Origin: a virus
DNA: 35,378 nucleotides
Direction: 5' to 3' (one strand)
IMG/VR virus record: IMGVR_UViG_3300031669_002510
Coordinates: 1-35,378 of that record
Shown here: positions 1 through 19,425 of the stretch, piece after piece
How the letters are laid out: each line of letters opens with the position of its first letter
Numbering within the stretch: the stretch's first letter is position 1
The notes under the pieces: model-generated
Databases searched by the model: none
What the model was told of the DNA's origin: nothing
Seen by the model: the letters and a program-made list of their open reading frames with translations, nothing else
Made by a program: the position numbers and the translations under genes

Positions 1-2
1 AC

Positions 3-758
3 CTGACGTATGAGTACGGTTTTGAAGAGCCGGTGGATATGACTTCGCAGGAAGTCAATGAGCGTTTCATCAATCAGGAAGCTATTGCGGCTTCTCTGGC
101 TTGGCAGAAGCTGTTGCTCGGTCGTGAGAGTCGTGTGGCTACTGCGTTGATGAATACCACTACCTTCACTGGCGCTACAAATACCGTAGCGGTCGCTGAA
201 GAGTGGGACGATGCGGCAAATGCCGTTGCTTGGGCGAATATTGATGCCGCGGCCATTATCCTGCGTGGTAAGACTGGATACGCGAAGCGTTCCATGTCTC
301 TTATCATAACGGATGATAACCTTGACTACGTGATGCGTTCCACGAACGTCATTGCGAATATCAAGTACACCCGCGATATCGAGACTATGCCTCGTGAGGG
401 CAAGCGTCGTTGGTTTGCTGAGTATCTTGGCATCAAGGAAGTGCTTGAGACGAGTGCTATCTATGATACCTCGAAGCTCGGTGGCACGTTCAGTGCTACG
501 ACTGCTGGTAAGTTCTGGTCGAACGAGTACGGGATGCTCTGTATTCTTGACCGTAGCCCCAGCATGATGCAGACTGGCGTTATCAAGCAGCCTGTATTTA
601 GTCAGTATGCGCAGGATTACGTCATGGAGTCTTATGAAGAGCCTGCACAGCGCAAGCTCATCATCCGTGCGCGTGAGTATCGTGGTATCAAGGTGAACGC
701 GGATTATGGCGTTCTGCTGACGAATATGAAGACCACCGTTGGTACGGGTGGAATCTAG
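3..758 (+). CDS. Major capsid protein, 5'-truncated (C-terminal ~251 residues)
   Basis: The reading frame is open from the first bases of the window and ends at TAG 756-758; an internal GTG at 33 is not a convincing start because the frame continues upstream. The visible protein looks like the second half of an HK97-fold or gpE-type capsid subunit: a helix rich in E and R (EEPVDMTSQEVNERFINQE), a long stretch with DAAAIILRGKTGYAKRSMSL, then a C-terminal part with YAQDYVMESYEEPAQRKLIIRAREYRGIKVN, typical of the capsid P/A-domain end. Codon use is strongly biased toward CGT, AAG and GCG, as expected for a very highly expressed gene. It sits directly before neck and tail genes, the usual capsid position. 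The family call rests on pattern and context; exact subfamily is not certain. Confidence 0.75.
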   Translation: MTYEYGFEEPVDMTSQEVNERFINQEAIAASLAWQKLLLGRESRVATALMNTTTFTGATNTVAVAEEWDDAANAVAWANIDAAAIILRGKTGYAKRSMSLIITDDNLDYVMRSTNVIANIKYTRDIETMPREGKRRWFAEYLGIKEVLETSAIYDTSKLGGTFSATTAGKFWSNEYGMLCILDRSPSMMQTGVIKQPVFSQYAQDYVMESYEEPAQRKLIIRAREYRGIKVNADYGVLLTNMKTTVGTGGI

Positions 759-774
759 TATTTAACCTTACAGG

Positions 775-796
775 GTGGGGAGGGCAACCTCCCCAC
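775..796 (+). terminator. Strong hairpin after the capsid gene (partial terminator or attenuator)
   Basis: A perfect 9-bp stem GTGGGGAGG/CCTCCCCAC closes on a GCAA (GNRA-type) tetraloop 17 bases after the capsid stop codon. Only three T residues follow before the next ribosome binding site (GGAG at 800-803), so full intrinsic termination is doubtful. It may give partial termination or protect the capsid mRNA 3' end, keeping capsid output above that of the downstream tail genes. Confidence 0.5.
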
Positions 797-808
797 TTTG
801 GAGATTAC

Positions 809-1429
809 ATGGCTACGCAGGTTACATTAGATACTAGGCGATACGCTCCTTGGGTGAAGAAACTCATCAAGCGTTATCGTATTGGTATGAATCTCGCTAT
901 AGCCATATCAATAGATAACATTCGCGCGCGAGCTGCACGTAGTTTCATCATACCCAATAAAACTGGTACACGTAATCCTTACGAGGCGACTAAAAAACAG
1001 CCCTCAGACAGTACTAGACTAACATCGAGAACTGGCAAGCTGGTTGAGATGCTTGAGCAGGACGCCACTCCGGGAGGTACTGCGTGGAGTATTGTTGGAA
1101 CCAAAACAATGAGATTGAATACATCAGCCTTCGATGGTATGGTTAAAGTGGCTGCTGGATTTGGGACTGCGAACGAAGAATACGTAGGTACGCTTCGTGT
1201 GCATGTGAAACCCGGTGACATCACATCAGATTGGGTAGCACGTGCATACTTGAGGGGCAAGGTACGAGGTGAAGCAAATCCTGCTGCGCTTCTCGCAATG
1301 AGATTCAAACATGAAACTGGCATTCGCGGGTCGCGTAGACCCTTTATGGCTCCCGCTGTTGGGCAGGAAGAGTTTCCGTTTAGGAAACTTGTCGACCAGA
1401 AGCTCAATGAGCTGGGGTATATACGTTAG
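809..1429 (+). CDS. Putative head-tail connector / neck protein (HK97 gp10-like)
   Basis: A 206-residue basic protein with a GGAG site at 800-803 and ATG start. It contains TSRTGKLVEML and a C-terminal RRPFMAPAVGQEEFPFRKLVDQ segment; the pattern of a central TGxL followed by a late RPFMxPA is seen in HK97 gp10-like and related head-tail joining proteins that sit between capsid and tail tube genes. Position (first gene after capsid, two genes before the candidate tail terminator) agrees with a neck role. No catalytic motif is visible. The identification is by motif and synteny only; a phage minor structural protein of another family is possible. Confidence 0.5.
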   Translation: MATQVTLDTRRYAPWVKKLIKRYRIGMNLAIAISIDNIRARAARSFIIPNKTGTRNPYEATKKQPSDSTRLTSRTGKLVEMLEQDATPGGTAWSIVGTKTMRLNTSAFDGMVKVAAGFGTANEEYVGTLRVHVKPGDITSDWVARAYLRGKVRGEANPAALLAMRFKHETGIRGSRRPFMAPAVGQEEFPFRKLVDQKLNELGYIR

Positions 1430-1430
1430 T

Positions 1431-1457
1431 GTTGGGTTAATTTAACTTGTTTAGGAG
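1431..1457 (+). promoter_or_regulatory. Start-associated leader, GTTGGGTTAA type (late)
   Basis: GTTGGGTTAA at 1431-1440 begins right after a stop codon and is followed by TTTAACTTGTTT and the ribosome binding site AGGAG (1453-1457), 5 bases before the ATG at 1463. The leader closely matches the one at 4889-4916 on this strand and the one at 19426-19454 on the opposite strand. Confidence 0.7.
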
Positions 1458-1462
1458 TAACC

Positions 1463-1831
1463 ATGGAGTACATCGGAAAGAATTTCGCAAGAAAAGATTG
1501 CAAGGAATTGCAAGATGGCGATGTACTGATTAAGTGTAATGTCAGTCAGGAACTAGCTCACACTAAGTTAGCCTGTGATGGTAAGAAGATAACTTTTGAA
1601 AAATGTAATCTTCATAATGTTGAACTGTGGCCTGAAGCTGCTGTAAAGGGATGTCTTACTATTCATGCAGATGTTAATGTTGAGCAGGAGCTTACTACGG
1701 AAGAAAGTATAGACTTGAAACTAAAAGAATTGGTTGAGGTGTATGGCGAGAAGGATGTAAAGGATACTGCAGCGGTGAAATTTGACCTTGCAGCCAAGGT
1801 AGTTGAACTGCCGGAGGTCAAGAAACTATGA
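1463..1831 (+). CDS. Conserved-type small phage structural-region protein, function unknown
   Basis: 122 residues, acidic, starting after AGGAG at 1453-1457. The N-terminal half has MEYIGKNFARKDCKELQDGD, then ITFEKCNLHNVELWPEAAVKGCL, a Cys-Asn-Leu element like a single pentapeptide-type turn, which I recall from small unknown proteins in phage head-tail regions. The C-terminal half is Lys/Glu-rich and probably helical. No enzymatic motif, signal peptide or membrane segment is seen. Its stop codon overlaps the start of the next gene (ATGA at 1828-1831), so the two are likely translationally coupled and may act in the same structure. Function not assigned. Confidence 0.7.
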   Translation: MEYIGKNFARKDCKELQDGDVLIKCNVSQELAHTKLACDGKKITFEKCNLHNVELWPEAAVKGCLTIHADVNVEQELTTEESIDLKLKELVEVYGEKDVKDTAAVKFDLAAKVVELPEVKKL

Positions 1832-3918
1832 CCATATCTACTGACTACTATGTAGATTTAGGGCACGGTGACGATAGTGCTGCTGGCACATCTCCTAGTG
1901 TTCCTTGGAATACGCTAGATAAAGTTATGACAACTGTACTACAAGGGCAGACCGTTGCTGTACGCTGCCAAGAGGGTACATATGTAGTACCTAATTGTCT
2001 ACCACCTTGGGCTGACCAAGGTCTTGCATCTGATGGCATTCTTACATTTATTGCAGTAGATAGCAATTGGGATGAACCTGCTATCGGTGACTACTCTGTT
2101 GTGCTGGATGGCAATAGTACTTTAACTGCATTGATGGATGCTGTGTCTGTAACTACCCCCTTGTGGAACCTGTACTGGAGGAATTTTCATTTTACTAGAT
2201 TTGTATCGGATATTGCAAAAGCGGGTAATCCATATTATGTCAATCAATTAAATTTCTATAATTGCAAGGTTTCTTTATGCCCAAATGGATTCTCTGCTAA
2301 TGGTTCTGCTGCGTATTCATCAAGATGGGCTGCTGCATACTGTGTTGCTGAAGACGTGACTGGTGTAGGATATCCGTGCTATACACATCCTATTACTTTA
2401 TATAAGTGTATTGCGCGTAGATGTGGTAACATTGGATTTGGTAGTTCCTATAATTTAGCGGCGACTGATTGCATTGCTGACTCATGTGTGACAGGATTCT
2501 TATTTGGTGGTGCTTCAAATCAGCAGTGCTTTGGTGTGTTTGATGGCCTCATTGCATATAATTGCACAACTGGTTTCAAAATTGGTACTCGTACACAAGT
2601 AAGTTATGAGATAATAACTAAATGTATTGCTCATAGTTGTACTAATGCTTTTGAAGAAATACTTAATACAGCTGTCTTTGGTAATATAAAACTATTGCAC
2701 ATCTATATCTATAACTGTCCAGTTGTAGTACTGTGGGCTAATCACACTTTATATATCACTTGGTTAAATGACTATGTTGTTTTAACTGACGACCCCTTGA
2801 CTGACCCTGCTAATGGTGACTTCAGTGTCAAGCGTAGTTCTCCGGTGGCATCATTACAAGAGAGTGTTGAGTTAAATAAATTTATGTATACCACTGCTGG
2901 TCCTGGTAGCGTATCTTTATTACCTGAAATCGACGATTCTGCCCCATCGACGGCAGCTGAAGGCGAAACAGTCACGATTACTGGTATCTTTTCTACCGCC
3001 GGAAATGCTGTATCCCTCGGAGGAATATCTTCTGCGATTACATCTGAATCCGCATCCAGCATTGAATGCACTGTTCCAGCTGGATTAACTGCCGGAGAAA
3101 TGTATGATATAGTTGTAACAGATGCTAATGGTAGTATTGCAACGGCGCCTAATGGCTTTAGGCTTCAGCCAGTATCGGCTACATTAGTCATACGGGCATT
3201 GTCGCGTAGGTATTGGGACAGCGCAGGTGGCGAAACAATTAATATTACTATAGAGAATGCTTCCGCCTCTGGGAATACAGTTTTGGTGAACGGGGCAAGC
3301 GTTGATATCGTGAGTGAAAGTGCAAGCCTTATTATTATTACTACTCCTGCTTTAGCAGCGGGTATCTACGATATGGAAGTGCGTTCTGCACTAGGGAATT
3401 CAGATACCTTTACTGGTGCAGTAATCTCAATGGAATACGGAGCAGAAAGTCCAATCGCACTTTTCTTTGAAGCCTTGAAATCTAAAATTGAAACCAGCAC
3501 ATATATTACCGATGCGGATAACGTAGTCGTGGGAGAAACAAAAGATTTATTCGCACACGAGGACGCGAATTTTCCTCGCGTCGAAATCTTGTGTAAGGTC
3601 TTTAATGGTTCTGGCTATGCGTCTCAACGTAGTCTAGACTTTAGATTGCGTATCATCGTAGTTGGGTATCTTAAGCGGGATTCCGACGACGTAACAATTT
3701 CAGACATGACTAATCTAACAAATTTTGGAATCGACTTAAGCACTTTGATTTACGGAATGCTGGACGATAAGCAGAATGGACTGACGAATGTACCGGGATT
3801 CTTGAAATTCTCAGGGTATCCATCTGCGTATTATGACTTTGAGTTAATTCCAAAAATTTCAACTGCGTTGCTGGAAGTCGAAGCAGATTTCCAGTTGAAT
3901 GATACACAAACAAGGTAG
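1828..3918 (+). CDS. Fusion: beta-helix-like + two IPT/Ig-like domains + tail-terminator-like C-terminus
   Basis: 696 residues with three regions. Residues ~6-54 show the opening seen in right-handed beta-helix proteins (DYYVDLGHGDDSAAGTSPS, PWNTLDKV, GQTVAVRCQEGTYVV), followed to ~330 by Cys/Asn/Ile-rich turns. Residues ~369-444 and ~449-533 are two related Ig-like segments with IPT/TIG features (GETVTITG...GEMYDIVVTDANG; GETINITIE...AGIYDMEVRSALG). Residues ~535-696 form a compact domain (SPIALFFEALKSKIE ... LDFRLRIIVVGYLKRD ... LLEVEADFQLN) resembling phage tail terminators. The position just before the tail tube genes fits that role. No ribosome site precedes Met535, so this looks like one polypeptide. 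The N-terminal DNA is more AT-rich than the C-terminal part, suggesting acquisition of a surface module. The tail-terminator call is inference. Confidence 0.6.
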   Translation: MTISTDYYVDLGHGDDSAAGTSPSVPWNTLDKVMTTVLQGQTVAVRCQEGTYVVPNCLPPWADQGLASDGILTFIAVDSNWDEPAIGDYSVVLDGNSTLTALMDAVSVTTPLWNLYWRNFHFTRFVSDIAKAGNPYYVNQLNFYNCKVSLCPNGFSANGSAAYSSRWAAAYCVAEDVTGVGYPCYTHPITLYKCIARRCGNIGFGSSYNLAATDCIADSCVTGFLFGGASNQQCFGVFDGLIAYNCTTGFKIGTRTQVSYEIITKCIAHSCTNAFEEILNTAVFGNIKLLHIYIYNCPVVVLWANHTLYITWLNDYVVLTDDPLTDPANGDFSVKRSSPVASLQESVELNKFMYTTAGPGSVSLLPEIDDSAPSTAAEGETVTITGIFSTAGNAVSLGGISSAITSESASSIECTVPAGLTAGEMYDIVVTDANGSIATAPNGFRLQPVSATLVIRALSRRYWDSAGGETINITIENASASGNTVLVNGASVDIVSESASLIIITTPALAAGIYDMEVRSALGNSDTFTGAVISMEYGAESPIALFFEALKSKIETSTYITDADNVVVGETKDLFAHEDANFPRVEILCKVFNGSGYASQRSLDFRLRIIVVGYLKRDSDDVTISDMTNLTNFGIDLSTLIYGMLDDKQNGLTNVPGFLKFSGYPSAYYDFELIPKISTALLEVEADFQLNDTQTR

Positions 3919-3926
3919 GAGGAAAG

Positions 3927-4886
3927 ATGGGAATCACTACGAAGGTAATCCGTAAAATGGCGGCGGAGATTCAACCCGCGGGTATCTACGATAGCGCCGC
4001 AATGTACCTGATGCCCTATGTTGGCGGTAAAATGGGTAAGTCCTATGATGGCATCATGGACGAATCCATTAGTGGAGAGGCATTTAAAGACATACCGCAG
4101 CAGGGTCCACGACGTGTGATGTCGGATGGTTTGGGATTTCAAATTGACCCAACAAGCTCAGAGATTCTTCTTGAGGCTCTTTTTGGGAACAATACCGCTG
4201 GCGTATTCACGCTTGGGAATAACGCCACAGTCCTTTCTATCGCGACGTATGATGGCGTGAACAGTCATAACAAGTATGCCAATGTATTCTTTAAGAAGGG
4301 AATCATCAAAGGCGCCGTCGGAAGTAACATCACACTTGATGCGGAGACAATAGGTGAAACGGACGAAGACCGAACCAGTGACGCTTTCCCAACAGTTACA
4401 GGATATGGCGAGCCGTTTACGTTTCATGAAGCTGGCGGTACTACTGGTTTCGTTCGTGTTGGGAATGCTGATGATGCTCTCGCTGCTGGTGACAATATTG
4501 AGATAGAGGATTTCTCCTTTGAGATGGACAACGGTTTCGACCATCAGCATTGCAACGTAGGAATAGGCATTCTTACTCCGTTATTCGGTATGGCACCTCC
4601 GAGCGTTGGTGGAAGCTTTACTGTTGCACGGCATGATACTGACCAGTGGCTGACTTGGGCAGAGGACCACACTCCTTTGCAGATGAGCGTCTACATCTAT
4701 AAGAGTGCCACGGCTTCTCTGCTGATTGAGATTCCTCGTTTTATCATCAAAGCTGACATCAGTGATGATGACACAACGAAGGTGGCTGTGGCTATGGAGA
4801 TAGGGCGTAATGGTACTGGCACGTCTTATGCGAATAGCAATATGGAATTCACTAGCCCTATCCGCGCAACACTCGTGAACGCGTAA
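3927..4886 (+). CDS. Tail tube protein (first copy)
   Basis: 319 residues; strong GGAGG site just before ATG. The segment SISGEAFKDIPQQGPRRVMSDGLGFQIDPTSSEILLEALFG and the later EIEDFSFEMDNGFDH and GGSFTVARHDTDQWLTW parts are matched in order by the next gene, so the two are paralogues. Length, acidic beta-rich composition and position before the G/GT chaperone and tape measure genes fit a siphovirus tail tube subunit that stacks as hexameric rings around the tape measure. No enzymatic motif. Assignment is from synteny and general features; which of the two paralogues forms most of the tube cannot be told from sequence. Confidence 0.6.
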   Translation: MGITTKVIRKMAAEIQPAGIYDSAAMYLMPYVGGKMGKSYDGIMDESISGEAFKDIPQQGPRRVMSDGLGFQIDPTSSEILLEALFGNNTAGVFTLGNNATVLSIATYDGVNSHNKYANVFFKKGIIKGAVGSNITLDAETIGETDEDRTSDAFPTVTGYGEPFTFHEAGGTTGFVRVGNADDALAAGDNIEIEDFSFEMDNGFDHQHCNVGIGILTPLFGMAPPSVGGSFTVARHDTDQWLTWAEDHTPLQMSVYIYKSATASLLIEIPRFIIKADISDDDTTKVAVAMEIGRNGTGTSYANSNMEFTSPIRATLVNA

Positions 4887-4888
4887 GT

Positions 4889-4916
4889 GTTGGGTTAACT
4901 AAATTTGTTCAGGAGG
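4889..4916 (+). promoter_or_regulatory. Start-associated leader, GTTGGGTTAA type (late)
   Basis: GTTGGGTTAA at 4889-4898 follows the stop codon of the first tail tube gene, then CTAAATTTGTTC and AGGAGG (4911-4916), 4 bases before the ATG at 4921. The whole leader aligns with 1431-1457 with only scattered changes, although the flanking genes are unrelated. Confidence 0.7.
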
Positions 4917-4920
4917 CCTA

Positions 4921-6264
4921 ATGGCAACGTCGTTGAAGATTAATCAGTTAGGAGCATTCCAACTGGAGGCTGGCCAAGCAGGTGCTGGCCTGTCTCCTGG
5001 CTGGGGTGCCTCTGGTTCTGAGGAAGCTCTTGGGGCTTCGGATGCATTTCCTTGGCTGTCGTTTGGTAAGGGTAAAACCATTAACTCGGAGAGACCGAAT
5101 GAGATTACATCTGAAGCATACTCTGATATTCCTCAGAAAGTCGGTGAGTACGTTGATAAATCGATATCCCTGCATCCTCGATTTTACAGTGCTAAGTTTG
5201 GAAGTATGCTATATTGGATGTGGGGTTTTGAAAATTCAATCGTGGAGGTAGGTGTATTCACACTCAATACCCCTACGGTTGAACCGACTGCTGGTGCTAC
5301 ATATCGTGACACGGATGATAATGACTTTACTTTCTTGAGAATGGAAACTTGGGGAACAACGATTTATCATATCTTTAGTGCAGACGATAGTGTTACGCCT
5401 ACATTGGCTACAGGTGACTTGACGAAGCAAGCGGGTACTGGCGATGCTACACTTACGTTCTCTGCACGCAGTGCGTTGATGTATGAACATTTATACGAAC
5501 TGGATGCACATGAACGTCATCTCACAGATTATCGCACGGCTGAGCAAATATCAGGTTATGCAGCAGGTGATAAGAAAAATAGAATGGCAACGCTTGGTAT
5601 TAAGCTTGGAACAAACGATTACAGATATAGGAACGCAATGTGTAAAGGTTTCAGTCTCAAAAGTCAAGCGGGCGGCTTTTCTGAGGTGGCTGCGGATTTC
5701 GTGGCGTATGATGAAGAGCGAGATGATTTTAGCAGTGCTGATTGGACTTTTGATTCCGGTTTTAATATTTCAGATTCAATTGTGGCTCACCATAATTGGA
5801 TTGTTCAGGTAGGGGAGAGTGCAGCCGCACTTGTAAATCTTGGAGTAACCAATTTTGAGCTTGGTGTATCCATTCCATTACAGGTGCTTCAGGATACTGT
5901 GAGTGGCACGCATATCGCTGAACCTGTTTTTGAGGGGAAGTATGATATCTCTTGTGGGCTTACAGTATCGCGTCACACTGTTGACACGTATCAGGATTAT
6001 CGTGATGCGTGGACTACGGTCGTTGCTCGGATGGCTGCACGCTCTGGCTATTACATGCAGGAGATTCTTGTGCAAGAGGCTAAGATAACCGATGCCGGTC
6101 CCGATGATGGTGACGTGCCTTCTAACACTCTGAAACTTGAAACGGGTTATCCTGCATCGAATCAGTGGTCTACATGGCTTACAGGCAACACGCTTATTCA
6201 AGGCGGTCCGATTGTGATGCGTTGGCGCAATGCGGATTCCACTAACCATATGTTTGAGATTTAA
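4921..6264 (+). CDS. Second tail tube-like protein with an inserted domain
   Basis: 447 residues. It parallels the preceding tail tube protein: NEITSEAYSDIPQKVGEYVDK aligns with ESISGEAFKDIPQQGPRRVM, and GLTVSRHTVDTYQDYRDAW with GSFTVARHDTDQWLTWAED. Residues ~110-187 carry an extra module (ATYRDTDDNDFTFLRM ... GDLTKQAGTGDATLTFSARSA) absent from the first copy but recurring in the 1489-residue tail protein. Such inserted beta-rich domains commonly decorate the outside of tail tubes. It may be a minor or decorated tube subunit. AGGAGG lies 4 bases before the start. The paralogy is visible by eye; the division of labour is inference. Confidence 0.6.
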   Translation: MATSLKINQLGAFQLEAGQAGAGLSPGWGASGSEEALGASDAFPWLSFGKGKTINSERPNEITSEAYSDIPQKVGEYVDKSISLHPRFYSAKFGSMLYWMWGFENSIVEVGVFTLNTPTVEPTAGATYRDTDDNDFTFLRMETWGTTIYHIFSADDSVTPTLATGDLTKQAGTGDATLTFSARSALMYEHLYELDAHERHLTDYRTAEQISGYAAGDKKNRMATLGIKLGTNDYRYRNAMCKGFSLKSQAGGFSEVAADFVAYDEERDDFSSADWTFDSGFNISDSIVAHHNWIVQVGESAAALVNLGVTNFELGVSIPLQVLQDTVSGTHIAEPVFEGKYDISCGLTVSRHTVDTYQDYRDAWTTVVARMAARSGYYMQEILVQEAKITDAGPDDGDVPSNTLKLETGYPASNQWSTWLTGNTLIQGGPIVMRWRNADSTNHMFEI

Positions 6265-6274
6265 GGAGATTCTT

Positions 6275-6649
6275 ATGAGCTTCGTCGTGAAGGAATGCCG
6301 CAAGGTAACGATTAACCATGTTGATGGTGACACGGAAATTAGTGTGACATTCGATTTCCCTGTGGCTGAGGATAGAGATGTTGCGAAATTGAAGAACAAA
6401 CTTGACGGAACGGATAACGGAACTTCCGCAACACTTCTCTACATACTGCGTTCTGCTCTTGTCAGCTGTACTGGAATTATACTTGAGACTGAGGACGGTA
6501 CGCAGAAAGAGGCTGTCATTGATAATGAAAACACTCAGAAGGTAATCTTCAATGCTGTTTGGATGATAGAGGACATTCGGAATAAAATCCTTATGGCCTT
6601 TGGAGACCTTGAAGGAAAAAACTTGCAGACTGGTGCGACGGAACAGTAG
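6275..6649 (+). CDS. Tail assembly chaperone, G-like (zero-frame product)
   Basis: 124 residues, start chosen at ATG 6275 because AAGGAGAT lies just upstream (6263-6270); an upstream in-frame start at 6230 would lie inside the previous gene. It sits between tail tube and tape measure genes, the invariable place of lambda G/GT-type chaperones, which bind the tape measure and recruit tube subunits during tail assembly. The canonical slip site A AAA AAC occurs eight codons before the stop, giving a -1 frameshifted longer product. The protein itself is small and acidic, without recognisable motifs. Function rests on position plus the frameshift arrangement. Confidence 0.75.
   Translation: MSFVVKECRKVTINHVDGDTEISVTFDFPVAEDRDVAKLKNKLDGTDNGTSATLLYILRSALVSCTGIILETEDGTQKEAVIDNENTQKVIFNAVWMIEDIRNKILMAFGDLEGKNLQTGATEQ
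6616..6622 (+). other. Programmed -1 ribosomal frameshift site (A AAA AAC)
   Basis: Zero-frame codons GGA AAA AAC give the canonical heptamer A AAA AAC at 6616-6622. The -1 frame is open from 6613 to the stop at 6982-6984, with no stop codon between. A possible 6-bp stem (GATTGG/CCAATC, 6649-6668) lies 26 bases downstream. A frameshift at this spot before a tape measure gene is the standard G/GT arrangement. Confidence 0.85.
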
Positions 6650-6984
6650 ATTGGAAATGGCGCCAATCAACTTGTCTAGCGTGCCAGTTCGACGGTTGTG
6701 ATAAGGGGTGTAGATACACTAATCAGGAAGTCGATATGAAGTCTTTAGTGCTCTACACCTCTATTTTACCTCTGTGGGAGATTTTTGAGTGCGCCATTGA
6801 ATTGAGTCCTTTGGATGCGCAAGGTTACTTTACTATCACTATGGTGGATTCAATCATTCGGGATATAGAACTTGAAATTAACCCAACAACCTTCTGGAAC
6901 ACCATGCGGTACTTCCTTTATCGGCAGAATAAAAAGATTATAGAGAAGCGCCGGCTAGATGCACTCAAACGCGGAGGGAAGTAA
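6622..6984 (+). CDS. Tail assembly chaperone extension (T part, made by -1 frameshift)
   Basis: The -1 frame after the slip site encodes 120 residues joined to the first 116 of the G-like protein, giving a ~236-residue GT product. The extension opens with a Cys cluster (TCLACQFDGCDKGC, spacing C-x2-C-x4-C-x3-C) that could bind a metal, then a helical segment up to a Lys/Arg-rich C-terminus (KKIIEKRRLDALKRGGK). An internal ATG at 6736 preceded by AGGAA could also give an 82-residue separate product, but the open frame upstream and the slip site make the fusion more likely. Its stop overlaps the tape measure start (TAATG). Confidence 0.75.
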   Translation, partial: LADWCDGTVDWKWRQSTCLACQFDGCDKGCRYTNQEVDMKSLVLYTSILPLWEIFECAIELSPLDAQGYFTITMVDSIIRDIELEINPTTFWNTMRYFLYRQNKKIIEKRRLDALKRGGK

Positions 6985-9764
6985 TGTCGCAACCGTTGAT
7001 TCTAAAGATAACTGTAGATGACAAGGGCAATCCGGCCCTTGTCAGTCTCAATACTAACGCAAAGAAGCTTGAAAAGACGTTGCCATCTGTCGGCAGCATG
7101 ATGAAAGCTATCTTTGCGACGAAGGCTATTACTAGTGGTATAGCCTTTCTTCGAGCTAATATCACTGGCCTTGTGTCTGAAATTTACAAATATGAATTAA
7201 CCCTACGTAAGATTGAGGGTATAACTCAGACTTCGGGCGCACCATTAAAGGCTTTAGGGGATACTGCTCGACAGGCCGCGTTGGATACTGAGTTCAGTGC
7301 TACGGAAGTCTCTGCTGCCATGCTAGAGATTGTTAAAGCTGGACGGTCTGTTAACGAGACCATCGAGCTTACTCCTGCTATACTAGATTTGGCCACTGCC
7401 GCTGGTGCCGACCTTGCTTGGGCCGCTAAGAATACTAATGAGTTAATGAATGCAATGGGAATTGGTGTAGAAGAGACTACTCGCGTTGTTGATGTTATGG
7501 CTACATCATTAAATGCAACACTCCTAAATCTCGAAGACTTCATGGAGGGTATGAAGTATATCGCCCCCATTGCTAATAACATGGGTGTTTCGCTGGAAGA
7601 GACTGCGGCCCTGCTGGGTAAGTTAACAGACGCTGGTATACGTGGTACAATGGCGGGTACTACGCTGCGTAATATCTTCTTGAATCTGTTAACTCCTAGC
7701 AAGCGTGTTGCTGCTGCTTTGAAGGACATGAACTTAGAGGGGAAGTCTGTTTCAGATATACTTGTTGGGTTAAAAAAACGTGGTATGACAATCCTTGACT
7801 TCTTACAGACATTCGATAAGCGTGCAGTTACTGGTGCCGCACAGCTTGCTGAGGTTGGTGGCGCAGTAAATGACTTGCAGAAGTCACTTGAGGATGGCGA
7901 TGTCGCTGCATCAGATATAGCTAATACCATTCGTGACTCGACTGTTATTGCATGGAAGATAGCCAAGAATACAGTTACTGAATTGGGACTGTCTCTAGCG
8001 GATGCTTTTGGAGATTCTACTCAGGGACTTATACAGTCTTTCACTGCTCAACTACGTAAGCTGGATACATGGATTGATAACAACCACGATACTATTAATG
8101 GATTTGTAAAGGGTTTAACTTTTACTGCTAAAGAGATTGCAGGATTGGTTATCCCCACGTTAACCGCATTAGGCAAAGTAATTATAGCTACGTTTGCATT
8201 ACACGCATTCCGCGGCTTAAAACTTTTCATGCGTGATTTAGAATATCTACCGATTAGAGCGCAATACGCGGCAGAAGGACTCAAAAAGATGGCCATGAGT
8301 ATGCAGGCTTGGCAGACCGTTGCCATGGCGGCATACATCGTTTTGGATAGGTGGGCTACTAAATTAAACGAGCTACGCGATGCTCAGATAGAGAATATAA
8401 CAAAGGATTGGAATACCGAGGGGCACCTTGCGGCATTAAAAACTGTCAAGGCGGCGTATGATAACCTACATGACGCTGAGGCAGCCGCTCAGTCCTTGGG
8501 TATGGAAAGTACAGAATGGACTAAAAAAGCTACTAAAGAATTAACAGCAACCATTAAAGCACATGGTAATGCATGGGGGGATACCTCAGAAAAGCAGGTT
8601 TCAACCGAGGAATCCCTTGATGGTATGATTAGAAATCTTGCGGTTTCTCTCTACCTGAATAAGCAGAACGCCGAAAAAACAAAAGAGACAGACGAGAATG
8701 CTAAGTCGTTAGCAAAGACCTTAGCAACGGTTGCAGCCGCTGCTGATGGGGATAAAAAGAGCACTTGGTTTGAGGACAACAAGTGGCAGTTTGATTTATT
8801 AGAAGCGAAGTCGGAATCTGAAAAACTTACAAAGAATTGGTACCAATTAGGTGTCGACCAAGTAAAAAACTTTGAGGATGGCTTTACTGATACAGCTAAG
8901 CATTGGGCAACGAATGTTGCTGCTATGTTTAACGTGGACCCTAGTTTTGCGCCAATCAGTCTAGAGGCCGCGGAAGAGAATGCTGATGGAGTCCGTACAG
9001 TCTATTCTGAATTATTCGGTTGGCTTATAGACTTAAACAAGGAATCCGCGGATAAAATTGCGGCTGAACAGAGAGCGGCCTTCAACTCAATAGCTCAGAG
9101 TGTTGGGTCAATTACAAATTCTGTTATAGACATAGTTGGAACGTACAACCAAAGCATTCTCGATAGCACTCTTGCTAGGCTCGATGCTGAGTCAGCAGCG
9201 ATAACGAAGCGTTATGATTCTGAGTATGCGGCTGCAGAAGGCAATGCTTTTAAGCAGACTATCATTGAGGAAAAGCGTGCCCAAGAAGAAGAGCGCATTG
9301 CCAAGGAAAAAGCCGCGGCCGAGAAAGAAGCTAAAGAAGATGAGAAGGCTTCTAAGATAGCTCAGGCTACAGCTGATGCTACGCTCGCTGTAATTGGTGT
9401 TCTAGCCAATACTTATGGTGGTGTCTACACACGTGCGGCTGCTGGTGTTGCGATAGCTGCTATAGCTGCGGGTTACATTTCGCAGTTATATTCTGCACTA
9501 TCTGGTTATCGCACTGGTGGCATAGTTGGCGAAAAAGGGAATGGGACATCAGACAGCAATCTCGCCTTAGTCAGTAAGGGAGAAAGAATTCTAACTGAAG
9601 ACAATATAGATTCTCTTGGCGGTAACGAGAGAATTAACCAGATGCTGGACCGCGGCGGTACATATAATACATCAAGTAAAACGGTCCACATTGATACATT
9701 TGTGGGTACTCGTGAGTTTGCGCGTTCGATGATTAAGACAATCGAAAAGGAGCTTAGTCGATGA
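6984..9764 (+). CDS. Tail tape measure protein
   Basis: 926 residues. Residues ~85-260 contain a TP901-type tape measure core (EFSATEVSAAMLEIVKAG ... MGVSLEETAALLGKLTDAGI ... GTMAGTTLRNIFLNL). Hydrophobic helices lie around residues 395-410 and 820-860 (ATLAVIGVLANTYGG; AAAGVAIAAIAAGYISQLYS). A charged coiled coil (IIEEKRAQEEERIAKEKAAA) precedes the second. The C-terminus has the tape-measure-like GGIVGEKGNGTSDSNLALVSKGERILT motif. The protein sets tail length; at the usual ~1.5 angstrom per residue it would predict a tail of roughly 140 nm. It is coupled to the GT extension upstream (TAATG) and the next gene downstream (ATGA). One copy of the dispersed 10-mer lies at 7764-7773. Confidence 0.93.
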   Translation: MSQPLILKITVDDKGNPALVSLNTNAKKLEKTLPSVGSMMKAIFATKAITSGIAFLRANITGLVSEIYKYELTLRKIEGITQTSGAPLKALGDTARQAALDTEFSATEVSAAMLEIVKAGRSVNETIELTPAILDLATAAGADLAWAAKNTNELMNAMGIGVEETTRVVDVMATSLNATLLNLEDFMEGMKYIAPIANNMGVSLEETAALLGKLTDAGIRGTMAGTTLRNIFLNLLTPSKRVAAALKDMNLEGKSVSDILVGLKKRGMTILDFLQTFDKRAVTGAAQLAEVGGAVNDLQKSLEDGDVAASDIANTIRDSTVIAWKIAKNTVTELGLSLADAFGDSTQGLIQSFTAQLRKLDTWIDNNHDTINGFVKGLTFTAKEIAGLVIPTLTALGKVIIATFALHAFRGLKLFMRDLEYLPIRAQYAAEGLKKMAMSMQAWQTVAMAAYIVLDRWATKLNELRDAQIENITKDWNTEGHLAALKTVKAAYDNLHDAEAAAQSLGMESTEWTKKATKELTATIKAHGNAWGDTSEKQVSTEESLDGMIRNLAVSLYLNKQNAEKTKETDENAKSLAKTLATVAAAADGDKKSTWFEDNKWQFDLLEAKSESEKLTKNWYQLGVDQVKNFEDGFTDTAKHWATNVAAMFNVDPSFAPISLEAAEENADGVRTVYSELFGWLIDLNKESADKIAAEQRAAFNSIAQSVGSITNSVIDIVGTYNQSILDSTLARLDAESAAITKRYDSEYAAAEGNAFKQTIIEEKRAQEEERIAKEKAAAEKEAKEDEKASKIAQATADATLAVIGVLANTYGGVYTRAAAGVAIAAIAAGYISQLYSALSGYRTGGIVGEKGNGTSDSNLALVSKGERILTEDNIDSLGGNERINQMLDRGGTYNTSSKTVHIDTFVGTREFARSMIKTIEKELSR
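7764..7773 (+). repeat. Exact copy of dispersed 10-mer GTTGGGTTAA
   Basis: In-gene copy in the tape measure, read as Val-Gly-Leu-Lys. Same sense orientation as the late leaders. Confidence 0.8.
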
Positions 9765-10177
9765 CAACTTTAACTTTAACCCAAACCGAAGGCGGCTCCG
9801 AAGTCGTAGCCATTACGTGTAGCCTAGTATACGGCACGGATTGGTTTAGCAATCGTCTTAATCAGACTACGGTAGAGACTGCCGATGGCGGTATGGTTAC
9901 ATATGACGCGGGGCCAACTGTTTGTCATGGGGTATTGGTATTAAAAAACGTATCGTATACAGATGGCCAAGCTTTATTGCATTGGTTAAAAGCGCACATA
10001 CTCTATGCAAAGTATCAATTCACTGTAGCAGCCGTAGCTAATGTGGATTTGGGCAAGGGTAAGAATACTGCATTAACTATTGTGAATTGGGATGGTGGGC
10101 GTAGCACTAGTGGATTACTAGAGTATGTCGCACCCGGACAATACAACGTAAGATTCCCTTACAGATTTAAGGAGTAG
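9761..10177 (+). CDS. Probable distal tail / baseplate protein
   Basis: 138 residues starting in an ATGA overlap with the tape measure stop. Beta-rich, with TDGQALLHWLKAHILYAKYQFTV in the middle and a C-terminal LLEYVAPGQYNVRFPYRFKE. The gene directly after a tape measure usually encodes a distal tail or tail completion protein that connects tube and tip. No family signature I can name is present, so this is a positional call. It has a four-base gap (followed by ATG) to the large hub protein. Confidence 0.45.
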   Translation: MTTLTLTQTEGGSEVVAITCSLVYGTDWFSNRLNQTTVETADGGMVTYDAGPTVCHGVLVLKNVSYTDGQALLHWLKAHILYAKYQFTVAAVANVDLGKGKNTALTIVNWDGGRSTSGLLEYVAPGQYNVRFPYRFKE

Positions 10178-10180
10178 GTC

Positions 10181-13100
10181 ATGGCCTTTGACGTATCTGT
10201 AAGTAATAGTCTGTATGCCTATGTAGCAATTTTTCCTAACGCCAATGACGACTGGTCGGCTACTAGTCCGTTTAGTGGCTATAACCTATCTGGTGGCAAG
10301 ACCGCTTTGGCAATTGGTACATTGGATAGTGATACATTCACGAATTTCGTGCGCGTTCCTTCAAAGCTACTCAGTATCTCAAATATTGATAAAGGTATTA
10401 ATATCTTTGAGGGCAATAAACATGACTTGAAAGTCAGCAAGGAGATATTGGGTGTTGGCGGCGTGGCCATGACTGGTAGCTTTAGTATTGAATTTGAGAA
10501 TTCCAATCGTACTATCATGACCTCAAATTTGATTGGTCGCACTATATCTCTTTGGGTCGCTAATGGTACTGCCATGTCGGATACAACGGCTGACAAAGAA
10601 GTATTATTTACAGGTAAAATCTACTCTATCGACGACTCTGGACGTGTTGGGTTAAAAATAGAAGTTAGGTCGAACCTGTCTCTTTGGGATAAGGAAATCG
10701 GGACACCCACTGAGAGTGAATCTACTATCTATAACAGTAAGATTATCCCGATGGTCTATGGGGATTTTAGCGATGATTTCGCCTATGTGCCTATCGTTAT
10801 GGATAAAGACTTTCGTAATTTTGCACAGTTGTTTCTCGATGAGCGCAAGCTTAATGAAGTGCTAAATTTCTATTGCTGGGATAAAGATAGCAAGGTAGCG
10901 TATCTCGCTACGAATGGCAATGATAGTGTTTTGAACACAGACAATAATAGAATTACGATGTACTCTGATAACGACCTGTATCTAGTAGATGCCACTATAG
11001 CAATTGCAGATTGGTTCAAGACTTCCTATTTTCCAATCACTCTATGGAATCCGCCCTACGTAATCTTTGCTATTAGCGGTACTGTGACAACCGAGCCTGT
11101 AGGGCATACCATAGTGGCCACTGGTACAGTCTACTATGATGCAGAAGGAAATATGTATGAATTTTTATACATGACTTCAACATATTATGTCTTTACTGCT
11201 CGCAGCGAAGACTACATATATTCAGAACTTAGCGGTACTCTTACTAAGCATTCTGGAACTGGAGACAGTAGTTTGACCTTTACTTGGCACTCTGCCGTGC
11301 GTGACCCGCATCTCTTTTTTGAGAGTGCTGAAGAGGTCTATAATAGTGTTTTAGTTTCATCGGCCAAAGCTGAGCAGATATTGATTCAAGTTGAAGACGA
11401 AAAAATGCTATTGGTTACAGATTTCACTACAGAGTGTGTAGCCGTTGCGGGTAAAAACGGGTACTATGAAAAGAGCTCTACTCACGCCTATCGTGGCTAC
11501 GATGGTACATCGGCTGTTGTCCACGCTGCGTTGTCTTCCGTCTATGAGGTTAATGGTAAAATTAAGGGAAGCAAGTGGTTGGTAAAACATAAATTTATCT
11601 CTACTGGTTTTGCTGGTTTCTCAACGTCTATGCGCGGCACGTATAAAGTAGCCTTTGAAGGTACTAATGCATTCGTAGATGATTGGGCGGCTCTAGAAGA
11701 GAATTTCATAAGCGCAAATGATTTTATTACAGTAGCCCGGTCAGGTGACGGCTATGTAATTGGGCTTCCTATACGCAGATACTGGAATGTTACTACATTT
11801 GGTAGCCTAGGTAGTGCTATCCTTGCACTAGATTTGCTATTTCCTACCGTAAATATATCTGGAGAGGTTCTGGATATCTTTGTAATAGGTGGAATAGCTT
11901 TTCAAAGTAAGGATTTCACACAGACATACGGCTTACAACACACCGCGGCTACGGCCTGTATTGTAAAAGGTGGATCTCTTAAACCACATATATATGTCAA
12001 GCAGGAATCTACTAGCCGTAGAACGGCTGGAACACTACGTGTAGTATCTGCGGATTATACCTCTAGTACAGGATTTGCGATGGAGGGGCTTGGCAGGTGG
12101 GCACTACAGCCAGAAGACTATCTTTTCCAGCGCATGAATTACTTGGCGGATACTATCTTTCCTGATGACGTTGGGTGCTTTCTATTTGAATCCAGGGGAC
12201 AGGGTTTTAGAGGATTCTATACACCCGACTATTTACCCTTAACCGACCCTTTGTATGCTGCGAAGTATCCTCAACTTTCTTCGGATGAAAGTTTCTCTTT
12301 GTCACACAGTGACCTTGAATACGATGGTGTTTTTGGGAACATCAATCAGCTCGGCACACAAAGATACGCCTTGTGTATTTGTGAGGGATTTCAAGTAAAG
12401 TATGGGAGCCAGGTATGGTCGGGTCTGATAAATGATACGTTACTGACAACCATTAAAGAAATTGGTTTCCTAATCCATTTCTATGTTGACCCCGTAGAGA
12501 CTCCTTTCTACACCAAGGTGTATGGCCGTGAGTTTGACGCAGCAGTATCCTATTTTGACGAAACGGCTTCTGGTATGATTGAGAATGCCGCGGATGTAAT
12601 AGAGGATATTCTGCGAAGAGAAGTTGGCCTGACCGATGCTGAACTGGACGAAACGTCTTTTGATGCCGTTCGCCCTTTAAGAGATACTTGGAAGCTCGCA
12701 ACGGTTATACAAGGTGAACCAGTTTTGTTAACCCAACTCCTAAATAATATAGCGCGTGAGTTTGGATTGATTGTTTATGAGACACGCGAGGGTAAGATAG
12801 GTTTGAACACCTTAGATGTGCCAGCAGCTACGGGCAGTCTTCGTGAAATACTTGATTCTGAGTTGGTGACTGAGGATGAGAAAGTAGTCTTCCAAGAAGA
12901 ATATACTTCACTCAGTAGTTTATTCACTGGGGTTAATGTTAATTATGCAAGAAACCATGCTGACGACTCCTATGGATACAATGCACAGACTGATGCTATC
13001 GAAGACCTAACTCAATTACTGGCGGATACCGAAGACTTCACTGACGAGGCAGTTAGTGCTACGATTAATTTTGAGGGTATCCGTGATTCTCTAACCGCTA

Positions 13101-14650
13101 ATCAGTCTGTATACTTGATTGCATTATACCATAAAGCGCCCTTGCGCAAACTGACTATTAGTGGTATTCTTTCACTATATGATGTAGATGTAGGGGACTG
13201 GGTATACTTTGACACCGCGACATATATTCCCGGAACGGGTAGCAAGGTATATTTAGTAATTAACTCAAACTTAACACTTCCCTTGTTTGGTGCCTTCCCT
13301 AATGTTACATTGGAGCTAATCGAAATGGACATCGGCGCGAACAACCAGACCTTTGCTGAGGTGACAGATGCTTACTTCACTGGAGGATATCCGGGCAGTC
13401 AGACAGAGTTAAAGGCTGGAGACACGTTTGACTTGACTGTTGAAACCGATAAAGATATTGTAGCTATAGAGGTGATGGACTCCCAATATTATGCCACAGA
13501 GGGCGAAGTATTTGAGTTCTCAGCTTCTCAGAGTGAAACGGTAACTGTTACGATAGCTGACCGCGGGGCAGAGACTCAGTTTATGGAGTGCATGCTTAGA
13601 GTGCAGTCTGCCGATGGCGTGTGGTCTAGCTGGATAGGTACTAGTGATTTCTCTGAGGTGGATGGCACAGGTAAAGTATATCTTAATAATACCTATCCTT
13701 TTGCATCAGTTGATATGATTACGTATCCTACTGACCAGGATGCTATTTCCAGCGGTGAGTTAGCCGTTGTGTACGTCGATGAGGTGAATTGTGATTCAGT
13801 AGTTTATAGCTCACCCAATAGTCAATTGACAATCCATGACACAACTGTAATGGATGATAAAGTCTGTGACTACGCTGCTGGTGACTATAATACTACTGAA
13901 GTGAACTTCCAAGGTATCTTTACACGCGCCGCCAATGGAGCTACATATACACTAGAGGTAATTGTAGCCATAGCGAATGCCGCACCAGTGATAAGAATAA
14001 CAGAGAGTGCTGAACTCCTGCGTAGTGGTCCTAGTGTTTGTTGTGGTGGTACTGGAGCAGAATACTATGTGTATATAGTCTCTGACCAGATACTTCTTGA
14101 GGTGCCTACTCTAGCTCCTGATAGTAGTGACACCGAAACTGAGATAAGCGCATTTGAACTACTAGAAGACTTGTCAGACGATGAACAGACATTGCTAGTT
14201 GATTACCTGACAGGACACTATATCTATCGCGCAACGATTACTATCTATGATGATACTGGTAACGGAGTATTCGACTGGGAGAGTCTTGTGGCGACCGGCC
14301 TCGCAGGCGTTGAGCAGAATACTATTACTGCGGACGACTTCGATGACACCTATGAGATTCGCGGGTTCATTGAGCGCACTCTTACCTTTGCTGCATGGAC
14401 AAATAGGGAAAGAGGAATCGGTAAGGCTGTGCATACTATAGGCAACGTAGTTGTCCATAATCTCAGTAAGGGTGATGATTATGAATTAACCTTACGCACA
14501 TCAGTAGGGGACGAAATAGACACATTCACAATAACTGACCCGTCTGCCACGTACAACGCTAATGGTAATCTATTGTATAATTGCGACTTAGCCAATGCAG
14601 TCTCTAATACAAGCGGCACACTCCAAATGACAATTGAGGAAACTATATGA
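10181..14650 (+). CDS. Large tail hub / tip protein
   Basis: 1489 residues, the largest gene. Residues ~60-185 look like a tail-tube-derived hub entry; the middle (~820-1060) contains VIQGEPVLLTQLLNNIAREFGLIVYETREGKIGLNTL and later LRKLTISGILSLYDVDVGDWVYF, a pattern typical of tail-tip or baseplate hub proteins. Residues ~1090-1170 look like an Ig/FN3-type domain (ELKAGDTFDLTVETDKDIVAIEV ... QSADGVWSSWIGTSDFSEV). Residues ~297-376 contain a beta-rich module (GTVYYDAEGNMYEFLYM ... GTLTKHSGTGDSSLTFTWHSA) shared with the second tail tube protein. It likely organises the tip and links to fibres. A copy of the dispersed 10-mer lies at 10646-10655. Confidence 0.65.
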   Translation: MAFDVSVSNSLYAYVAIFPNANDDWSATSPFSGYNLSGGKTALAIGTLDSDTFTNFVRVPSKLLSISNIDKGINIFEGNKHDLKVSKEILGVGGVAMTGSFSIEFENSNRTIMTSNLIGRTISLWVANGTAMSDTTADKEVLFTGKIYSIDDSGRVGLKIEVRSNLSLWDKEIGTPTESESTIYNSKIIPMVYGDFSDDFAYVPIVMDKDFRNFAQLFLDERKLNEVLNFYCWDKDSKVAYLATNGNDSVLNTDNNRITMYSDNDLYLVDATIAIADWFKTSYFPITLWNPPYVIFAISGTVTTEPVGHTIVATGTVYYDAEGNMYEFLYMTSTYYVFTARSEDYIYSELSGTLTKHSGTGDSSLTFTWHSAVRDPHLFFESAEEVYNSVLVSSAKAEQILIQVEDEKMLLVTDFTTECVAVAGKNGYYEKSSTHAYRGYDGTSAVVHAALSSVYEVNGKIKGSKWLVKHKFISTGFAGFSTSMRGTYKVAFEGTNAFVDDWAALEENFISANDFITVARSGDGYVIGLPIRRYWNVTTFGSLGSAILALDLLFPTVNISGEVLDIFVIGGIAFQSKDFTQTYGLQHTAATACIVKGGSLKPHIYVKQESTSRRTAGTLRVVSADYTSSTGFAMEGLGRWALQPEDYLFQRMNYLADTIFPDDVGCFLFESRGQGFRGFYTPDYLPLTDPLYAAKYPQLSSDESFSLSHSDLEYDGVFGNINQLGTQRYALCICEGFQVKYGSQVWSGLINDTLLTTIKEIGFLIHFYVDPVETPFYTKVYGREFDAAVSYFDETASGMIENAADVIEDILRREVGLTDAELDETSFDAVRPLRDTWKLATVIQGEPVLLTQLLNNIAREFGLIVYETREGKIGLNTLDVPAATGSLREILDSELVTEDEKVVFQEEYTSLSSLFTGVNVNYARNHADDSYGYNAQTDAIEDLTQLLADTEDFTDEAVSATINFEGIRDSLTANQSVYLIALYHKAPLRKLTISGILSLYDVDVGDWVYFDTATYIPGTGSKVYLVINSNLTLPLFGAFPNVTLELIEMDIGANNQTFAEVTDAYFTGGYPGSQTELKAGDTFDLTVETDKDIVAIEVMDSQYYATEGEVFEFSASQSETVTVTIADRGAETQFMECMLRVQSADGVWSSWIGTSDFSEVDGTGKVYLNNTYPFASVDMITYPTDQDAISSGELAVVYVDEVNCDSVVYSSPNSQLTIHDTTVMDDKVCDYAAGDYNTTEVNFQGIFTRAANGATYTLEVIVAIANAAPVIRITESAELLRSGPSVCCGGTGAEYYVYIVSDQILLEVPTLAPDSSDTETEISAFELLEDLSDDEQTLLVDYLTGHYIYRATITIYDDTGNGVFDWESLVATGLAGVEQNTITADDFDDTYEIRGFIERTLTFAAWTNRERGIGKAVHTIGNVVVHNLSKGDDYELTLRTSVGDEIDTFTITDPSATYNANGNLLYNCDLANAVSNTSGTLQMTIEETI
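10646..10655 (+). repeat. Exact copy of dispersed 10-mer GTTGGGTTAA
   Basis: In-gene copy in the tail hub gene, read as Val-Gly-Leu-Lys, sense orientation. Confidence 0.8.
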
Positions 14651-15132
14651 GACTCTATATACCTTATTGGATTAATGGAGTGTTACCTCCGACTGTGATT
14701 AAAAGTATCGGAGCCCAGACTATTCAGTGTGAAATCGTAGTGATTAGTACACTGCGTACACGTAATAGAGATAGTGAGTATGAGAATAGGAATATGATAT
14801 TTGACTTAGCCAAGGCAGAAGACGTATTCCTAATGCAGGATTCCGACGTGAGTCATAAGCGTACTGATAATATACACAGTATGCTACACTATCTTGCTGA
14901 GCATCCGACAGTGGGCTATGTGGCATTAAGGCACGGGGCAATCTTAGTACATACCAATCATGTGGATATCGGTTGCTGTGCGGTTAGGAGACTCGCGATT
15001 AAAGATTCTTATTTAACCCAACAGCATTCAGAATGCTGCTGTGTTGGGTTAAAAAATCTTGTTGAATCAAATGGATACGTCGCTAAGTACCTTGATGCGG
15101 CAGAACGCATACAACTGGAGCTGAGACAATGA
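14647..15132 (+). CDS. Small glycosyltransferase-like protein in the tail module
   Basis: 161 residues, ATGA overlap with the hub gene stop. The layout resembles a compact GT-A glycosyltransferase: an N-terminal beta strand (CEIVVISTLRTR), an RN pair before a helix (ENRNMIFDLAKAED), and a DxD-type site in FLMQDSDVSH (D65-S66-D67) that in GT-A enzymes coordinates the sugar-nucleotide metal. Later VGYVALRHG and HVDIGCCAVRR could form acceptor-side elements. It is shorter than full-length GT2 enzymes (usually 220 or more residues). Wedged between hub and fibre genes and coupled to both, it could modify a virion or host surface structure. A large inverted repeat of the dispersed motif is coded within it (15013-15052). 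Confidence 0.55.
   Translation: MRLYIPYWINGVLPPTVIKSIGAQTIQCEIVVISTLRTRNRDSEYENRNMIFDLAKAEDVFLMQDSDVSHKRTDNIHSMLHYLAEHPTVGYVALRHGAILVHTNHVDIGCCAVRRLAIKDSYLTQQHSECCCVGLKNLVESNGYVAKYLDAAERIQLELRQ
15013..15052. repeat. Inverted pair of the dispersed motif with nested hairpin
   Basis: TTAACCCAAC (15013-15022) and GTTGGGTTAA (15043-15052) face each other. Between and overlapping them, CAGCATT and AATGCTG form a second 7-bp stem around the loop CAG. Together they give a ~17-bp interrupted stem in the middle of the glycosyltransferase-like gene. No T-run follows on either strand, so it does not look like an intrinsic terminator. Confidence 0.8.
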
Positions 15133-17642: not shown

Positions 17643-17650
17643 GAGGAAGT

Positions 17651-18025
17651 GTGGCAAACATTACTAAATTGGTATTCTCAACAGACAGTGTTGCGTTGGA
17701 TGAGCCAGTGATAGTAGACGGAAGAATAACGGGTACGGCTACGGTAGATAAACCGCGCAGCGAAGTAGAAACGACGATGCTGAAAGACCTCGCAGAATAT
17801 TCGGCAAATACTGCTAAAAGCATGAAAGACGTTATCAGTATGCTAAATGTAGTGGAGCAACTCGAAAAACTCACAGGAGCTATAACAAAAAATACTGAAG
17901 TGGATTTAGCCAATGCAGACATCCTTAAGATAAACGAGGCCTTTGTTGGGTTACAAAACAAACCTAACGGTTGGATACGCTATTGTCGCAACCTTATCCG
18001 TCAGCTTGCGAGTGTTAAAGAATGA
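17651..18025 (+). CDS. Small protein of unknown function between fibre and lysis genes
   Basis: 124 residues. GTG start at 17651 chosen because AGGAGG lies at 17641-17646, overlapping the fibre stop region. The middle (TMLKDLAEYSANTAKSMKDVISMLNVVEQLEKLTGAI) is a probable amphipathic helix or coiled coil; no membrane segment is present, so it is not a classical holin. Its stop overlaps the amidase start (AATGA), so the two are coupled. A virion-associated or lysis-regulating role is possible from position, but I do not recognise the family. A near copy of the dispersed motif (GTTGGGTTAC) lies at 17945-17954. Confidence 0.7.
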   Translation: MANITKLVFSTDSVALDEPVIVDGRITGTATVDKPRSEVETTMLKDLAEYSANTAKSMKDVISMLNVVEQLEKLTGAITKNTEVDLANADILKINEAFVGLQNKPNGWIRYCRNLIRQLASVKE

Positions 18026-18438
18026 AGAGACTACTTACATCATCTATCGTATTTCATCATAGTGCCTCGCGTGATGTTAGTATTGATGAGGTAAGAGCGT
18101 GGCATATTGCGCGGGGCTTTAGCGATATTGGGTATCATGCTATCGTACACAGAGATGGTAGACTTGAAGAAGGGAGAAGAATTACACTTATAGGTGCCCA
18201 TGCAAAGGGGCGTAATTGGTGTAGCATTGGTGTATGTCTTATGGGTAACTTAAATAAAGTTTTTCCTACAGCAGCTCAAATACGCGCAGCTGAAAACTAT
18301 TATGTCTATGCCTGTGAATACTATAAGAAAAAACTAATTCCAAGTTTTCATCATGCAGAATGTCCAGGGAGTAATCTTAACCGAGAGAAGTTCAAGTCTC
18401 TAATGGAGGCCGCGTATGCGTCTCAAAATAGAAGGTAG
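18022..18438 (+). CDS. N-acetylmuramoyl-L-alanine amidase (endolysin, T7 lysozyme-like)
   Basis: 138 residues, almost the length of T7 lysozyme, matching the Amidase_2/PGRP fold throughout. Visible features: SSIVFHHSAS with zinc ligand H12, VRAWHIARGFSDIGYHAIVHRDG with the catalytic-type Tyr38, GAHAKGRNWCSIGVCLMGN, and HHAECPGSNL carrying zinc ligands His110/111 and Cys114. The enzyme would cut the MurNAc-L-Ala bond of peptidoglycan at the end of infection. The Lys that precedes the Cys in T7 lysozyme (PKACP) is replaced by Glu (HAECP). No signal peptide or SAR anchor, so export would need a holin, which is not evident nearby. Confidence 0.92.
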   Translation: MKRLLTSSIVFHHSASRDVSIDEVRAWHIARGFSDIGYHAIVHRDGRLEEGRRITLIGAHAKGRNWCSIGVCLMGNLNKVFPTAAQIRAAENYYVYACEYYKKKLIPSFHHAECPGSNLNREKFKSLMEAAYASQNRR

Positions 18439-18979: not shown

Positions 18980-18987
18980 AAAAGAAA

Positions 18988-19007
18988 GGGCGCCGATTAA
19001 GGCGCCC
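18988..19007. terminator. Bidirectional rho-independent terminator
   Basis: Perfect 7-bp stem GGGCGCC/GGCGCCC with loop GATTAA. On the minus strand it is followed by a good T-run (TTTCTTTTTC); on the plus strand by the weaker TATTCATTTA. It separates the plus-strand late genes from the converging minus-strand operon. Confidence 0.88.
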
Positions 19008-19014
19008 TATTCAT

Positions 19015-19421: not shown

Positions 19422-19425
19422 TAAT

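Follow-up and report, generated by a model that had tools for sequence, protein, structure and literature searches.

The gene that fills the tail-terminator slot of the viral genome analysed here encodes a protein of 696 residues, in which a likely terminator core of standard size is preceded by a module of about 530 residues, made of a probable right-handed beta-helix and two IPT/TIG Ig-like domains. The window, i.e., the whole stretch of DNA under analysis, is a linear IMG/VR record of 35,378 bases. The overall explanation that we consider probable is that of a tail terminator bearing an N-terminal display module, for which we infer the ring, its location, the projection of the module and its binding.

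The fused gene and its expression signals

The open reading frame of 696 codons is uninterrupted throughout (Table 1). A strong Shine-Dalgarno sequence, GGAGGT (1813-1818), lies 9 nt upstream of its ATG, and its start overlaps the stop of the 122-residue gene P0003 in an ATGA (1828-1831). Inspection of the sequence upstream of the internal ATG of Met535 found no Shine-Dalgarno sequence. Since the long frame has its own ribosome-binding signal and the ATGA overlap, and none precedes Met535, the fusion is the expected product, and the 696-residue fusion is confirmed as a real gene, as read from the sequence. Third-position GC content (GC3) is 0.29 in residues 1-530 versus 0.40 in the core (residues 531-696; permutation p 0.007); it is 0.28 in residues 1-345, and 0.37-0.58 in most flanking genes. 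This shift within the gene, together with the metagenomic origin of the contig, could be taken as the mark of an assembly chimera, or the N-terminal part could be cleaved and separately active. Both are highly improbable, given the single continuous frame, the signals described above and a gene order that continues on both sides as in the relative described below.

Table 1. Features of the neck and tail region, with the evidence for each.
Feature	Coordinates	Strand	Evidence
Major capsid protein (MCP), incomplete at the window edge	3-758		PHROG 1005
gp10-like / lambda gpZ-like tail completion protein, 206 aa	809..1429	+	L159:10833-11516, 26% identical, E 1e-22
P0003, small gene of 122 aa, part of the inserted stretch	1463..1831	+	no match in L159 contig
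Fused gene, beta-helix-like module + two IPT/TIG + tail-terminator core, 696 aa	1828..3918	+	ORF, Shine-Dalgarno, ATGA overlap
Probable right-handed beta-helix, residues 1-345, lineage-specific	1828..2862	+	LnbX N-cap match, coil motif, absence from L159 contig, low GC3
IPT/TIG Ig-like domain 1, residues 366-444	2923..3159	+	Pfam PF01833, 29.5 bits
IPT/TIG Ig-like domain 2, residues ~454-521	3187..3390	+	Pfam PF01833, 22.8 bits
Likely tail-terminator core, residues 535-696	3430..3918	+	L159:11503-11988 match over residues 546-694; fold matches
Tail tube protein, 319 aa	3927..4886	+	Pfam Phage_tube_2 E 2e-7; 44% identical to L159:11998-12954
Second tail-tube-like paralog, 447 aa	4921..6264	+	53% identical to L159:12970-14298
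Tape measure protein	6984..9764	+	PHROG 1533 E 3e-54
Partners of gp145-like domain resembling window 15129-17642	L018:11257-12861, L030:11229-12263		similar protein start

A relative with a free-standing core

A scan with the major capsid protein yielded the sole relative found, IMGVR_UViG_3300037424_000697 (52,270 bases; hereafter L159). Its structural genes are collinear with those of the window (identities of 52% for the capsid protein, 44% for the tube, 53% for the second tube and 36% for the tape measure protein), and the replication genes are also shared (polymerase 50%, primase 49%, helicase 44%). The order in both genomes is capsid protein, gp10-like gene, the gene in question, tube, second tube, two small genes in the chaperone position and tape measure protein. 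The slot of the 696-residue frame, between the gp10-like gene and the tube, is occupied in L159 by a free-standing gene of 161 residues (11503-11988), which overlaps the end of the L159 gp10-like gene and is 30% identical to the C-terminal part of the window protein (E 6e-25). The sequence-only reading had singled out an unusually large gene in the terminator position, and this ortholog at the same syntenic place bears it out. That reading also left no room for a separate terminator gene; a search of the window found no second copy of the core.

Met1 of the 161-residue protein aligns at about residue 540 of the window protein, so that Met535 lies close to the old start. In the 52-kb contig of L159, neither P0003, the beta-helix part nor the IPT domains has a match. 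From this comparison, the 696-residue protein is a neck protein of standard size to which some 530 residues, specific to this lineage, have been joined at the N-terminus, almost exactly where the ancestral protein began. The window thus has, between the gp10-like gene and the terminator, a segment of about 2 kb that is absent from L159. This segment, P0003 plus the module, would either have been inserted once the two lineages had separated or have been lost from that of L159. As small free-standing terminators are the rule, gain in the window lineage is more likely than loss in L159, on the two genomes compared.

L159 also encodes, upstream of its terminase gene, a free-standing protein of 355 residues (2463-3530) that shares the N-cap motif (YYVKPDGDDGDDGT) and matches Pfam Beta_helix weakly (E 5e-5). 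A protein of this type may have served as donor of the module, although the two show no direct similarity. P0003, for its part, holds a pentapeptide-like stretch (ITFEKCNLHNVELW).

A search for closer relatives among 50,697 phage genomes returned nothing, whether by megablast with bases 1-20,000 or by tblastn with several of the structural proteins. Scans of IMG/VR with P0001, P0002, P0009, P0010 and P0012, and of genome contigs with P0001 and P0006, gave no relative either. The phiKZ gp145-like domain (63 loci) and tape measure proteins (80 loci), used as queries, retrieved distant phages devoid of homologs of the neck genes.

Identity of the C-terminal core

In the window as in L159, the core gene lies after the gp10/gpZ-like gene and directly before the tail tube gene, as do lambda gpU, HK97 gp9 and T5 p142 with respect to the tube; the gene order is that of lambda Z-U-V and HK97 gp8-gp9-gp10, in which the 696-residue frame fills the terminator slot. 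No sequence similarity to lambda gpU, HK97 gp9 or T5 p142 is detectable in the core. Searches of the core against Pfam, PHROGs, NCBIfam and PDB sequences, and tblastn of phages up to E 10, were empty or spurious; hhalign of single- and two-sequence profiles against collected terminators, gp10s, stoppers, adaptors and tubes gave no signal, and with a mixed terminator HMM the core does not score above shuffles. A family match is indeed not to be expected, as the terminator class shares only 7-18% sequence identity (PMC11784142). Weak matches in Helicobacter, Ochrobactrum and Salicola phages were dropped as out of context, and others, to an ORF in the stopper position among distant phages, were judged to be chance.

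Single-sequence AlphaFold2 modelling of the core predicts, with low confidence (pLDDT 41), a helix, three strands, a helix, a hairpin and a strand. The p142-class fold is defined by a four-strand antiparallel sheet, two helices and a hairpin after helix 2, and the order of helices and strands described for T5 p142, of 161 residues, matches that of the model (PMC11784142). In a Foldseek comparison of the model with 350,542 PDB chains, the diffocin collar takes first place and T5 p142 ranks second and fifth; PilO, which DALI is reported to place near T5 p142 (PMC11784142), ranks eighth, and more neck or terminator entries follow lower down. Alignment with VIA-align lists the R2 pyocin collar over 106-107 residues and, among the predicted viral proteins of BFVD, a "tail completion protein" comes first and a "tail terminator protein" eighth. 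None of these structural matches is significant singly (best E 0.09 for viral proteins and 0.49 for the PDB), and it is their agreement that provides the evidence for the fold. The T5 protein and the free-standing L159 core share a length of 161 residues, and the top PDB resemblance of the window core is to p142 and tail collars.

It is quite unlikely that the core is another neck protein, such as a head-tail stopper or another completion protein, in which case the module would still sit at the neck. No stopper gene was recognised in the window or L159, so that the stopper could be among the genes left unassigned, and the sequence tests do not separate the stopper and terminator classes for the core. 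Against this alternative, the core gene stands directly before the tube gene, the predicted element order and the fold matches point to terminators and collars rather than to stopper beta-barrels, and a stopper in this place would leave no terminator between the capsid and tape measure genes of L159. The core (residues ~535-696) is likely a tail terminator, on the strength of synteny with the ortholog and of a weak but consistent structural resemblance. The terminator assignment of the sequence-only reading is thus likely right, and the structure prediction that it had proposed as a check gave a model of the core whose best matches are terminators and collars, at the low confidence and without the significant match noted above.

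The N-terminal module

The first 34-46 residues of the protein resemble the N-cap found in the lacto-N-biosidase LnbX and in a family of Leptospira surface proteins, with residues 4-34 matching the lacto-N-biosidase cap at E 0.0005 in NCBIfam and E 0.0016 among PDB sequences. Right-handed beta-helices are recognised by core residues that stack over successive coils, each of about 20-26 residues. Four copies of the motif C[IV]Axx[CV] lie at residues 172, 194, 215 and 266 (spacing of 21-51 residues), a four-fold pattern that was picked after viewing the sequence and was reached in 0 of 20,000 shuffles. The hydrophobicity of residues 1-345 shows a weak periodicity at 21-22 and 26 residues, and this part holds 15 of the 17 cysteines of the protein. 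A Pfam scan of the protein gave no Beta_helix match, and AlphaFold2 without an alignment yielded no usable model of residues 1-355 (pLDDT 30). Residues 1-345 are probably a right-handed beta-helix, judging from these motifs. The two Ig-like domains are firmer, as both exceed the PF01833 gathering cut-off of 20.9 bits. The beta-helix plus IPT architecture claimed earlier for the N-terminal ~530 residues is therefore established for the IPT domains and likely for the beta-helix.

Phage beta-helix proteins are often depolymerases, and the N-cap match is to a lacto-N-biosidase; the module could accordingly be an enzyme acting on capsule or exopolysaccharide rather than a binding module. We regard this as unlikely, though the least so of the alternatives: the match covers only the cap (~30-40 residues), Pfam and NCBIfam searches of the protein for a lyase or hydrolase domain gave no match, and two IPT domains as spacers suit display.

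Proposed arrangement at the neck and known systems

Terminators form a hexameric ring atop the tail tube, in which a beta-sheet lines the channel and the helices lie outside (PMC11784142). From knowledge of this family, in which loss of the terminator gives tails that are overlong or cannot be attached, residues ~535-696 would form an alpha-beta ring subunit, six of which would cap the tail tube and connect it to the head. In residues 1-530, the two IPT/TIG domains would act as a stalk for the beta-helix, attached just ahead of the first helix of the ring subunit; because the module joins before this helix, and the helices lie outside the sheet that lines the lumen, six copies would project outward at the neck. 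An N-terminal addition should be tolerable in T5 p142, since the protein stays soluble with an N-terminal His-tag (PMC11784142). Judging from domain type and position, the neck probably shows six copies of a surface-binding module. This module would probably bind host surface glycans as an ancillary adhesin, with an enzymatic role possible. Ancillary glycan binding is the most likely function because the neck passage structure (NPS) of lactococcal 936 phages includes beta-helix modules, and a CBM domain belonging to a different NPS group shows weak binding to host cells (PMC6669499).

Adhesin-type modules are thus carried at the neck by the NPS, in P335 as well as 936 phages of lactococci, and in groups D and E this structure ends in a beta-helix (PMC6669499). 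A dispensable gene of its own encodes the NPS, which has a BppU-like collar domain at the N-terminus, a binding domain at the C-terminus and a proposed 18 copies, whereas the module of the window protein is N-terminal, fused to a terminator anchor at the C-terminus and expected in six copies. The Pfam scan found no BppU-type domain in the 696-residue protein, whose layout thus differs from the one that defines the NPS, in which a separate gene encodes a binding domain preceded by a BppU-like collar domain.

Standard terminators measure ~105-161 residues (PMC11784142, among other sources), compared with which the window protein has an N-terminal extension of 530 residues. A terminator core with an extra domain is also found in phage 812 gp99 (a beta-sandwich) and in PVC16; these extra domains contact the contractile sheath or duplicate the core (PMC12886913, PMC11784142), whereas the window phage has no sheath and its extra part is an N-terminal module of the surface-interaction type. 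The adaptor of roseophage R4C is likewise a core neck protein fused to an Ig-like attachment domain (PMC10276861), but this domain fits none of the common phage Ig families, makes contact with the capsid and comes without a beta-helix. The module might instead stabilise or shield the neck as a collar or decoration would, without a role in adsorption, as the terminator decoration proteins of phage 812 (PMC12886913) and the Milano collar (PMC10491603) are structural. This is rather unlikely: those are separate small proteins or jelly rolls, and a beta-helix with IPT domains is a typical surface-interaction module. A display module on a terminator remains our preferred reading, and both of its ingredients have precedents: terminators that carry added domains, and beta-helix adhesins borne at the neck. 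The combination of terminator, beta-helix and Ig-like stalk was not met, nor any adhesin-fused terminator reported, in the literature searched, the coverage of which is incomplete.

Altogether, there is good support for the fusion and its architecture, and one can reasonably infer, from domain type and position, the adhesin, polysaccharide-binding or neck-whisker role that the sequence-only reading had put forward.

Other genes of the tail region

The 206-residue gp10-like protein scores 4.1 bits with a gp10-like tail completion HMM, above all of its own 200 shuffles (200/200), and contains by eye the motif HETGxRGSRRPFMAPA, of which the HETG..RPFMAPA end is seen in that class. Two tail-tube-like paralogs lie in tandem (3927-4886 and 4921-6264) and both are conserved in L159, whose own tube protein matches Phage_tube_2 at E 1.5e-13; in cross-comparison, the window tube matches the second tube of L159 at E 5e-4.

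Further downstream, the C-terminal ~430 residues (1057-1489) of a large tail protein (10181-14650) are 38-39% identical to phiKZ gp145 and its jumbo-phage relatives, which carry the annotation "tail sheath". The L159 homolog, of 1,081 residues, is alignable up to window residue 1037, and the L159 contig gave no match to the gp145-like domain. The tail thus has a second added module, at its opposite end. In two of the inspected loci from the scan with this domain (L018 and L030), the protein encoded next after it begins like that of window 15129-17642 (FxxFVxxELPxRIG...), which suggests that the two form a conserved partner pair in those phages and the window. Between the large tail protein and the latter gene, a 161-residue gene (14647-15132) looks by eye like a small GT-A glycosyltransferase (IPYWING..., MQDSDV), with no significant family match.

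Implications

To our knowledge, neck adhesins described so far are separate and usually dispensable proteins. A siphophage tail terminator, an internal component essential to assembly, may here have been turned into a six-copy adhesin carrier by insertion of a beta-helix and IPT stalk at its N-terminus, which would hard-wire neck adhesion into the ring between head and tail, such that it could not be lost without losing the terminator; we put this forward tentatively, as somewhat short of an even chance. The window and L159 offer a before-and-after view of one lineage. If a core joining protein can bear a surface module of ~57 kDa, adhesion would be addable at the neck by simple domain insertion, and a protein annotated as "tail terminator" may also be a host-interaction protein.
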